Positions 40,203 through 60,877 of a stretch of 64,000 nucleotides of DNA are shown here, piece by piece. The position numbers and the translations under genes are program-made. The notes below the pieces were generated by a model. That model was not told the DNA's origin, searched no databases, and saw only the letters and a program-made list of their open reading frames with translations. This stretch comes from Maridesulfovibrio ferrireducens. GTDB taxonomy: Bacteria > Desulfobacterota > Desulfovibrionia > Desulfovibrionales > Desulfovibrionaceae. The stretch spans positions 1-64,000 of the forward strand of contig NZ_JAEINN010000012.1 in assembly GCF_016342405.1 (NCBI RefSeq), given 5' to 3'. Positions within the stretch are counted from its first letter, which is position 1. The number at the start of each line of letters is the position of its first letter.

Positions 40203-40811
40203 ATGACTGATGTTGATGCCGTAAAAATAATAAGATCCGGCGGGGTACTTATTTATCCTACCGAAACTTTGTTTGCCCTCGGGGCAGATGCCAGTGACGA
40301 AGGGGCTGCAAATCGCGTTGCTCTTGTGAAAGGACGGCCTGTGTCTAAACCGCTACCTATTATTATAGGGAGTATGGATCAACTCGATCTTGTTACTAAA
40401 TACGCATCTCCTGAAGTGCTTAAACTTGCTAAGTCTTTTTGGCCCGGGCCTCTTTCCATTTTGGTTAAAGCTCGCGAAGAGTTGCCATATGCTGTGAAAG
40501 ATTCACGGGGATATACTTCTGTAAGATGGACCGATCATCCCGTTGCGGCAAAAATTTGTCTTGCATCTCGTACTCCGCTTATTGCAACAAGTGCGAATCT
40601 TAGCGGTAAAAAAGCTGCGGAAAAATTTGAAGATATTGATGAAGAATTGATAAACTCTGTTGAAGGTATTTTTGATGGTAAGCCCGCTCCTCGCGGAGGA
40701 AGTCCTTCAACCGTGATTGAACCGCTTAGCAATGGTAAAGTAAGAGTTCTCAGGGACGGAGTCATTTCCAGAGCAACTTTGATACAGGCCGGGTTCACAG
40801 TCGTAAATTAG
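40203..40811 (+). CDS. Threonylcarbamoyl-AMP synthase (Sua5/YrdC/YwlC)
   Basis: The product shows GGVLIYPTETLFALGADA, KGRPVSKPLPIIIG, WPGPLSILVKA and TSANLSGKKA, all standard for the L-threonylcarbamoyladenylate synthases that start t6A37 tRNA modification. Length is 202 residues, so it is the short TsaC-like form without the C-terminal Sua5 domain. The ATG at 40203 has GGAGA-type sequence upstream. A strong terminator follows. MtaB in this window acts on the finished t6A. Confidence 0.93.
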   Translation: MTDVDAVKIIRSGGVLIYPTETLFALGADASDEGAANRVALVKGRPVSKPLPIIIGSMDQLDLVTKYASPEVLKLAKSFWPGPLSILVKAREELPYAVKDSRGYTSVRWTDHPVAAKICLASRTPLIATSANLSGKKAAEKFEDIDEELINSVEGIFDGKPAPRGGSPSTVIEPLSNGKVRVLRDGVISRATLIQAGFTVVN

Positions 40812-40876: not shown

Positions 40877-41033
40877 AGTAAAAAAAATTAAACTGTAATC
40901 GTGATGAATAGCCGATGTTCAGTCTTCCGGTATAAATTGTTGTACTTTGTGTGTAATTTTAAAAAGAGACACTTTGTATATAAAAATGTTTAATTATAGC
41001 AGGTTAAGAGTTTTTATTAGTGGGTTAAAGTTT

Positions 41034-41050
41034 TGGCATGCGTATTGCTA
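41034..41050 (+). promoter_or_regulatory. Sigma-54 promoter of twin small RNA, copy 1
   Basis: TGGCAT, five bases (GCGTA), then TTGCTA: GG and GC are exactly 10 bases apart, as required for sigma-54. The match to consensus (TGGCAC-N5-TTGCW) is one base short of perfect. Predicted transcription start is about 41059-41061, within the conserved block. Confidence 0.82.
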
Positions 41051-41059
41051 TATTTAAAT

Positions 41060-41130
41060 CACCTTCATTCTTTTGCTGAGATTAATATCGAAAACAGGCC
41101 TCGCCGGATACCACCGGCGGGGCCTTTTCG
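41060..41130 (+). ncRNA. Candidate sigma-54-dependent small RNA, copy 1
   Basis: The predicted transcript is about 70 nucleotides, from the sigma-54 start near 41060 to T4 at 41125-41128. It begins with a C/U-rich stretch (UCACCUUCAUUCUUUU), continues through GCUGAGAUUAAUAUCG and ends in an 11-base-pair hairpin (41097-41107 with 41114-41124, loop AUACCA). There is no open reading frame with a ribosome binding site. The same block occurs again at 41399. The C/U-rich head could pair with Shine-Dalgarno regions of target mRNAs; targets are unknown. Confidence 0.75.
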
Positions 41131-41372
41131 ATTTTGTAGCAAATTAAGAATTGAAGATTGAAAACTTTTGAATAAATTGATCAGATCTGGCCGATTGTGA
41201 TATATCGTTTTTGGTAGTTCAAAAAATTAAACCAAGATCCCTTTGAAATCGGTGTTTTTATAATGCGAGTATAAAAAATTTAACTTTTTCCATGTTTGGT
41301 AAAAATGTCTTTTATATTTAAAATGACATATATTTAGGTATGTTAGCGTATGTTTTGGGTTTCTATAATTTT

Positions 41373-41389
41373 TGGCACGCGAGTTGCTA
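41373..41389 (+). promoter_or_regulatory. Sigma-54 promoter of twin small RNA, copy 2
   Basis: TGGCAC, five bases (GCGAG), then TTGCTA is a perfect match to the sigma-54 -24/-12 consensus. Predicted start is about 41398-41400. The element is conserved with copy 1, while the sequence just upstream is not. Confidence 0.88.
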
Positions 41390-41398
41390 TATTTAAAT

Positions 41399-41469
41399 CA
41401 CCTTCATTCTTTTGCTGAGATTAATATCGAAAAACAGGCTCCGTCGGATACCACCGACGGGGCCTTTTT
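41399..41469 (+). ncRNA. Candidate sigma-54-dependent small RNA, copy 2
   Basis: This is the second copy of the ~70-nucleotide unit. It differs from copy 1 by one extra A in the single-stranded part and by a few bases in the terminator stem (41437-41447 with 41454-41464). One stem pair is C-G in copy 1 (41104/41117) and T-A in copy 2 (41444/41457), a compensatory change that supports RNA folding. T5 follows. The transcript ends about 140 bases before the NUDIX gene, so it is unlikely to be that gene's leader. Confidence 0.77.
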
Positions 41470-41612
41470 CGTTTATGTCGTTTGTCTTGTTTTCTTTCTT
41501 AGAAATAAACCGTATTCTCTTGTCATGAAAAAACATATGCGTTAATAATTATAAGGAATTACCAAATGTAAGAATTCCTGTTTTTGGTGACATAAAATTA
41601 AGGTTGTTGTGT

Positions 41613-42101
41613 ATGCTTGGTTCGAAACCGTGTCCTCATTGCGGTAATGATGTTGTTCTTTACCGTAATCCGGTCCCTACTGTAGATATTATTATATATG
41701 ATCCTTGTAAGGGGGTTGTATTAATTGAGAGGAACAACCCCCCGCTGGGGTGGGCTTTACCCGGTGGGTTTGTTGACTATGGCGAAACACTTGAACATGC
41801 TGCTGTTCGTGAGGCGAAAGAAGAAACCAGTCTAGACGTTGTACTTACTGGTCTGGTCGGAGTCTTTTCCATGCCTTGCCGCGATGACAGACAACATACA
41901 ATAAGCATTACATACAGCGCTGTTGCGCGTAATCCGCAGGGGCTTAAAGCTGGAGATGATGCAGGAGCAGCCCGTTTTTTTCAGTTGGACGATCTTCCTG
42001 AATTAGTTTTTGATCATAGTGACATTTTGAATGAATTTTCGGTTAAAGTGCTTTCGTTGCAAGTTTCGGCTTCGATTGGAAATTCTGTTGAGCAGGTATA
42101 A
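41613..42101 (+). CDS. NUDIX hydrolase
   Basis: A complete NUDIX box is visible (GGFVDYGETLEHAAVREAKEET), with metal-binding REAKEET. The N-terminus carries a CPHCG knuckle, and a Pro/Gly-rich core (NNPPLGWALPGG) precedes the box. Length is 162 residues. ATG 41613 has AAGG 9 bases upstream; the TTG at 41604 is less likely. It lies 20 bases before glgA and may be co-transcribed. The substrate (ADP-ribose or another nucleoside diphosphate sugar) is not known; a link to ADP-glucose in glycogen synthesis is possible but unproven. Confidence 0.9.
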   Translation: MLGSKPCPHCGNDVVLYRNPVPTVDIIIYDPCKGVVLIERNNPPLGWALPGGFVDYGETLEHAAVREAKEETSLDVVLTGLVGVFSMPCRDDRQHTISITYSAVARNPQGLKAGDDAGAARFFQLDDLPELVFDHSDILNEFSVKVLSLQVSASIGNSVEQV

Positions 42102-59452: not shown

Positions 59453-60877
59453 ATGCGCAATTATATGATTGTAACTTTGGATATATCGGCTCAGGCAGCT
59501 TTGGAAGAAATTCTAGCATCCTCGGGTGAGGGGAAATCCCTGACTGATATTGCTGCCGCTAGATCTGCTCTTGCGGTTAATCCTGCGGATGTTATTTTTG
59601 TTGATTACAATCTTCTTATGGAAGATTGTTCATTATATACTGATGGTATGAGTGCTATATGGCAAGGACACTCTGACGTTGAGATTGTTGTTCTTGTTAT
59701 GCCGGATGATATTCGGCGTGCTGTTGATGTCATGAAGTCTGGAGCTGTTGATTATCTTACCTATCCTATTAATCCTGGTGAAGTTCAGGTTGTGCTTGAG
59801 CGGCTTGATAAGACGTTAATGCTCCATACAAAGCTGGATTATTTAAGAGACCAGTTTTGGAATGAAGACGCACTTCATGTCGTCAGAACAGACAGCATAG
59901 CCATGCGCGACGCTTTCGATAAAGTTCGCCAGATGGCTGGAACCAAAACGACAGTTCTTTTGACCGGTGAGACTGGAACCGGAAAAAGTCTTATAGCCAA
60001 ACTTATTCATACACACAGTTCCAGAAAAAATGATCCTTTCGTAAGTGTTCATTGCGGAGCAGTGCCTGATACCCTTATCGAAAGCGAACTTTTCGGGCAT
60101 GAGAAAGGAGCCTTTACCGGAGCAATCCGGCGTAAAATAGGTAAGTTCGGTCTTGCTGAGGGGGGAACTTTATTTCTTGATGAAATAGGGACAATCTCAC
60201 AGTCTATGCAGATTAAGCTTCTGAATTTTCTTCAGGAGAGGACAATTCAGAGGGTTGGCAGTGATGAGTCAATCCCGGTTGATGTACGGATAATAGCCGC
60301 TACTAATGATAACCTTTGGGACATGTGTGAAAAAGGACTTTTTAGAAAGGATCTTTATTATCGCTTAAATGTGTTTCCGATTGAAATTCCGCCTCTTCGT
60401 GAGCGTAAGAGTGATATTCTGTCGTTTGCGGAAGCCTTTGTCAGTCATTTCAGCCTGCAACTTGGAAAGGATATAAAAGGTTTGCATCCGAAAGTGTTGG
60501 ATGCCTTTCAGCGATATTCTTGGCCCGGAAATGTTCGGGAGCTTGAAAACTTGATTGAGCGGGCATGTATTCTTGAGAAAGATGATCGCATCAGTCTTTC
60601 CAGTATCCCTCAGGAGTTGTTTGGCCTTCTTCAAGGGGCAGAATGCAGTCGTCCTGACATTTCCATGGCGATCGGAAGGGCCAGACAGCTTGTTGTTGAT
60701 AAGTTTGAGAAGGCCTACCTTTCCGAACTTCTTGAAGCTACGCACGGCAAGATAAAAGAAGCTGCGAAATGGGCTGGAATTACGCCCCGTCAGCTCCATA
60801 AATTAATGTCTCGTCATGGGCTGCAACGCAGAAGTTTTCGGCCTCCTGAAAAAAAAGGAACCGGCGCTTCACAGTAA
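59453..60877 (+). CDS. Sigma-54-dependent transcriptional activator with degenerate receiver
   Basis: Residues ~1-125 are a receiver-like domain with Asp51 in place (VIFVDYN), but the conserved Lys is replaced (TYPINPG where KP is expected) and the acidic pair is reduced, so phosphorylation is doubtful. The AAA+ domain has Walker [15 protein letters not shown] (sigma-54 contact loop), [10 protein letters not shown] and arginine fingers ([19 protein letters not shown]). A Fis-type HTH ends the protein ([21 protein letters not shown]). Length is 474 residues. ATG 59453 is 9 bases after AGGGG; GTG 59450 is possible. The next operon may be its target. Confidence 0.9.

Follow-up and report, generated by a model that had tools for sequence, protein, structure and literature searches.

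The window analysed here, a 64,000-nt stretch of Maridesulfovibrio ferrireducens DNA, carries two similar units on the forward strand. They are flanked by a Sua5/YrdC-domain gene at 40203-40811 and by a NUDIX gene at about 41625-42101. Unit 1 starts at 41034 and unit 2, 339 bp further on, at 41373; each opens with a sigma-54 (-24/-12) promoter, TGGCAT-N5-TTGCTA at 41034-41050 in unit 1 and TGGCAC-N5-TTGCTA at 41373-41389 in unit 2. The pattern TGGCAY-N5-TTGCTA has no other match in the window, where 0.02 would be expected, and none of 100 shuffles contained two. Counted from the -12 TTGC, the units are identical over 50 nt. The presumed sRNAs span 41060-41128 and 41399-41469 on the forward strand; both starts are predicted (that of sRNA 1 at 12 nt past the C of the -12 element), as is the end of sRNA 1. 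Each begins with a conserved unpaired block, ACCTTCATTCTTTTGCTGA at 41061-41079 in unit 1 and its counterpart at 41400-41418 in unit 2, and closes at the 3' end with a strong GC-rich hairpin followed by a T-run, at 41097-41128 and 41437-41469 (both +). The two units fold with z-scores of -6.35 and -5.77, none of 200 shuffles being equally good, and compensatory changes are found in 8 of the 11 base pairs of the terminator hairpin across 32 units. No open reading frame of at least 60 aa covers either unit. The promoters 339 bases apart, the near-identical transcribed block, the intrinsic terminators and the lack of a reading frame had all been described in the first-pass annotation, and they are borne out.

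Rfam covariance models, Vibrio Qrr included, gave no match in the window at the gathering score, and around the units only weak, unrelated matches appeared at E values up to 10. This agrees with the earlier statement that no described family fits, and the likeness to Qrr remains, as was said then, one of logic only.

The same annotation had held that the upstream flanks differ and that only promoter plus transcript is conserved, and here it has to be corrected. Aligned in register, the 160-nt flanks are identical at 81 positions, and both contain a pair of palindromes at equal distances from the promoter: a distal site at 40877-40894 (AGTAAAAAAAATTAAACT) and a proximal site at 40929-40946 (GGTATAAATTGTTGTACT), 52 bp apart, in unit 1, and the sites at 41216-41233 (AGTTCAAAAAATTAAACC) and 41268-41285 (AGTATAAAAAATTTAACT) in unit 2. 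In all 32 distinct units of the genus the best palindrome pair (RGTNNAAANNNTTNNACY) is exactly 52 bp apart, with the nearer palindrome about 105 bp before the promoter. Among 53 units from other taxa the best pair is separated by 51-53 bp in 32, by 40-42 bp in 8, by 73-74 bp in 4 and otherwise in 9, while the flank control (one shuffle each) gave much lower scores and no such spacing peak. Separation by whole helical turns is consistent with what is established for enhancer-binding activators, and the pair is predicted to be the enhancer layout of such a protein.

A covariance model built from 32 units finds the family in all 17 same-genus genomes, with a best E value of at most 1.4e-14 and at least two strong copies in each, so that the block is conserved together with its promoter in related genomes, as had been expected. 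At E<=0.05 the model matches 191 of the 288 genomes of the family, spread over 30 of 44 genera, and the weak end of this list may include false matches. Inspected by eye, all 33 other-genus matches from the stronger part of the list combine a sigma-54-like promoter with a CCTTC-like block rich in pyrimidines and a terminator hairpin; among other-genus members the blocks deviate in G094 and G034, and CTTTTGC is absent in G143, G080 and G097. The exact promoter-plus-block pattern occurs in 14 of 17 same-genus genomes and in none of 271 from other genera, and its reversed control nowhere. A DNA search gave matches in 14 of 149 family genomes. Four of the six other-genus matches (L010, L012, L013 and L014) showed likeness to the terminator only and were excluded from the alignment; the other two, L011 and L015, are real members. 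A pattern scan of named genomes returned 54 records, of which 31 resemble members by eye, among them Nitratidesulfovibrio, Desulfovibrio, three Desulfohalobiaceae and one Desulfonatronum; the remaining 23 (Hymenobacter, Halieaceae and others) look like chance on the same inspection. The sRNA family thus appears to span many Desulfovibrionaceae genera, the Desulfohalobiaceae and Desulfonatronum.

At eight same-genus loci viewed by eye, the array is flanked by YrdC-like and NUDIX-like genes, and glgA- and glgB-like genes come next. In G007 (L137) the two sRNA units are separated by 2160 bp, an interval in which the opposite strand has a 539-aa reading frame (L137 3903-5522). The block, searched as one exact 34-nt pattern, had no match in viral contigs. 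Desulfovibrio-type members (L278, L279, L292, L196, L197, L212 and L214) have a second conserved pyrimidine motif, CAGCCTCCTCC, in the interval between block and terminator, a possible second pairing site.

A candidate target came from the palindrome. In this genome its pattern occurs at 11 places; its 13 strand matches compare with 29 for the reversed control, which means that the pattern by itself is not rare. Four of the places are those at the units, and of the other seven, judged by eye, only one precedes a gene start that can be recognised. The gene encodes a 480-aa porin scoring 509.5 bits against NCBIfam DESULF_POR1 (cut-off 250), the one such porin found in this genome. The porin leader contains TCAGCAAAAGAAGG, and within 12 nt of it, TCAGCAAAAGAA, located 11 nt before the ATG, complementarity to the sRNA block is perfect; on the sRNA side the segments complementary to the porin Shine-Dalgarno region are 41068-41079 and 41407-41418. 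For complementarity to the block the porin ranks first among 147 ORF starts, the runner-up reaching 11 nt; these are the starts of ORFs of at least 120 aa, spurious ones included, in part of this genome. In most genomes the pairing covers the Shine-Dalgarno sequence itself, 3-15 nt before the start codon.

The porin leader has a further motif at its 5' end, GAAGGTAGG, which is conserved in the genus. In L145 and its genus relatives the leader motif GAAGGTAGGYGTCAGG precedes the porin ATG by about 64 nt, close to where the porin mRNA presumably begins. In most genomes of the genus its TGAAGGTA part is complementary to the extreme 5' end of the sRNA, which variants of the motif match in G013, G015, G051 and G281. 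For this possible second pairing site in the leader (UGAAGGU), kept in most genus genomes, swaps among genera were not significant (5,365 of 50,000).

To compare sRNA and target over a wider range, porins were used from all 17 genomes of the genus and from 24 sRNA-carrying genomes of 13 other genera, with one or two copies taken per genome, some genomes having up to ten. Outside the genus the porin search succeeded in 25 of 25 genomes asked and in none of 14 control genomes. The longest Watson-Crick run between an sRNA and its own porin is at least 9 nt in 34 of the 41 genomes and at least 10 nt in 27, rising to 15 bp in G132 and G051, 17 bp in G036 and 18 bp in G153. The cognate run is equalled by no other-genus porin in only 16 of the 41 genomes, and by just one in 9 more. 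When partners were swapped among the 14 genera, with one genome drawn per genus and kinship among genera uncorrected, the cognate sum of run lengths was reached in none of 50,000 draws (means 155.2 for cognate and 110.7 for swapped pairs, sd 8.1). By duplex energy, again with kinship uncorrected, it was reached in one of 20,000; on this measure 8 of 24 other-genus porins do as well as the own porin of the present genome, and the G248 pair is no better than average.

Individual genomes illustrate both sides. In G143 the CUUUUGC/GCAAAAG part is lost from both the sRNA and the porin leader. In G248 the changed leader UCAACAAAAG predicted beforehand an sRNA with CUUUUGUUGA, and exactly that sequence was found; the compensatory change predicted together with it for G252 is absent from the sRNA of that genome. 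Seven genomes (G016, G034, G040, G080, G148, G198 and G252) have cognate runs below 9 nt, which either count against the pairing rule or reflect porin copies beyond the one or two taken. Taken over genera, the sequence comparisons indicate that the sRNA block and the porin start coevolve.

Together these results make it probable that the units encode sigma-54-activated, trans-acting sRNAs that prevent the major porin from being translated. Each unit would be the gene for a roughly 70-nt sRNA, at which sigma-54 RNA polymerase would wait on the -24/-12 promoter until an activator occupies the two palindromes, spaced by 52 bp. Through its unstructured 5' block (ACCUUC...CUUUUGCUGA) the sRNA would then pair with the Shine-Dalgarno region of the DESULF_POR1 porin mRNA and keep ribosomes off it, and two or three tandem copies would raise the sRNA dose. 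We infer that the units are transcribed, that this depends on an activator responding to a signal, and that the effect on the porin is repression. The earlier reading of the units as regulatory RNAs is partly supported, namely in the sigma-54 promoters, the several copies and the noncoding sequence, but was incomplete, having missed the likely porin target and the reach beyond the genus.

The RNAs might instead act broadly as anti-Shine-Dalgarno sRNAs with many comparable targets, the porin being one of them. CCUUC does resemble an anti-Shine-Dalgarno sequence, AGCAAAAGAA occurs 78 times in this genome (G000) against 25 for the reversed string, a difference that composition may explain in part, and the CAGCCTCCTCC motif of the Desulfovibrio-type members adds a second pyrimidine stretch. 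However, the porin comes first among the 147 starts, across genera the block changes along with the porin start, and most of the other AGCAAAAGAA places examined (a subset, by eye) are inside reading frames or have no fitting start, so that we regard such broad action as unlikely. It is less likely still that pairing with the porin leader aids its translation or stability, or that the RNAs serve as a sponge for another RNA. Whether the effect is positive or negative does not follow from pairing alone, and the conserved GAAGGTAGG motif in the leader would suit such a role; the pairing, however, covers the Shine-Dalgarno sequence, which is the usual place for repression. That the units are unexpressed, decayed duplicates of a sigma-54 promoter and terminator is very improbable, given that promoter, upstream pair and block are conserved beyond the genus, that the terminators covary and that the complementarity coevolves with the porin.

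Of the 50 porin loci from the 41 genomes, 34 (in 33 genomes) have the palindrome upstream, compared with 8 of 536 other windows at those loci and a shuffle rate of 1.6%. In this genome two adjoining palindromes lie ahead of the porin promoter, TTGCCA-N17-TAGAAC as identified by eye. Since the same palindrome stands upstream of the porin promoter, the regulator of the sRNAs probably also acts directly on the porin gene, with either sign. One porin copy in G251 (L152) and in G252 (L160) has the leader TTCAGCAATTGAAGG and lacks the upstream palindrome, as if outside this control.

Twenty-two sigma-54 activator domains score strongly in this genome, and no palindrome was found within 1.5 kb on either side of the domain at any of these loci. 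One activator domain, L258, is in the window itself at 59891-60385, about 18 kb downstream of the sRNA pair, with no palindrome found nearby. G219, a complete 1.41-Mb genome that carries the sRNA, narrows the field to two activator kinds. It has just two strong ones: one is orthologous to L252 (66% identity), the other resembles L267 (33%), a long membrane type. Of 288 family genomes, 275 have L252, as do 183 of the 191 that the covariance model matches, and with such near-universal occurrence mere presence hardly discriminates. Among the eight model-positive genomes that lack it, two (G276 and G030) have fragments of an orthologue at the ends of contigs and three (G130, G270 and G135) are 62-82% complete, whereas it is wholly missing in G192 (98% complete), G172 (93%) and G099 (97%). 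The sole activator match in G192 is of the long type, while G199 carries the sRNA (L277) but has no strong activator longer than 717 aa. The NtrC-type L252 is the leading candidate, with exceptions, and neither it nor the long L267 type is settled as the activator.

L252 is a response regulator encoded after histidine kinase and phosphoglucose isomerase genes, with a glutamine-synthetase-like gene nearby (by eye). Its near-universal presence makes it the likely orthologue of DVU3220, which the available text of PMC3333781 gives as one of two response regulators in all Desulfovibrio studied, and for which the available text of PMC4641369 has no predicted binding motif. The one target reported for DVU3220 in the former text, by gel shift, is the ammonium-transporter operon (PMC3333781), which weakens the idea. 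We propose only tentatively, and as rather doubtful in its entirety, that an NtrC-type regulator, probably of the DVU3220 kind and near-universal in the family, binds ahead of the porin and makes porin-blocking sRNAs through sigma-54, a two-layer permeability switch in which sRNA and porin leader would coevolve across an order.

Genes for sRNAs driven by sigma-54 and an enhancer-binding protein include Qrr, GlmY/GlmZ and CrcZ, and Qrr is also multicopy. The present units resemble them in this drive and, for Qrr, in copy number, but differ in having no Rfam match at gathering score and a major porin as their predicted target. Control of porins by sRNAs is a textbook theme in enterobacteria, where MicF, MicC, RybB and MicA repress them, and a porin-directed sRNA, NcS25, is described in Burkholderia cenocepacia (PMC10117139). 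The common feature would be a small RNA that targets the start of translation on a porin mRNA; here, however, the sequence and the porin family are different and the gene has a sigma-54 promoter with an enhancer pair. For ncS25, the available text reports that a sigma-54 motif is absent upstream and that sigma-54-like elements are found at the porin promoter instead (PMC10117139).

Closer in taxonomy are four predicted sigma-54 ncRNAs of D. vulgaris, in the DVU0653, DVU0679, DVU1419 and DVU2359 regulons, for which the available text of the two papers gives no target (PMC4641369, PMC3333781). They share the sigma-54 promoter, the noncoding product and the bacterial order; they differ in that three of the four are beside their own activator gene (neighbourhoods, rather than sequences, being compared), while in the DNA surrounding the loci of our family no activator motif was found except at L220, about 5 kb away. 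The ncRNA upstream of DVU3282 (activator DVU1419) could be a family member. Among the matches listed in the open-licence literature on Desulfovibrio sRNAs, porins and sigma-54 sRNAs, no description of this RNA was found. The D. vulgaris major porin ranks with the most abundant proteins of the outer membrane, its gene resisted attempts at deletion, and the available text of that paper does not mention sRNA (PMC5686591); no regulator of this porin was found in the open-licence literature.

For the activator, the palindrome pair offers a direct bait. The family also presents a clear case of an sRNA and its target apparently changing together over many genera. Porin control by sRNA would appear in sulfate reducers with unrelated sequence and tied to sigma-54, and through this link the pore would be closed by way of an ATP-driven activator.
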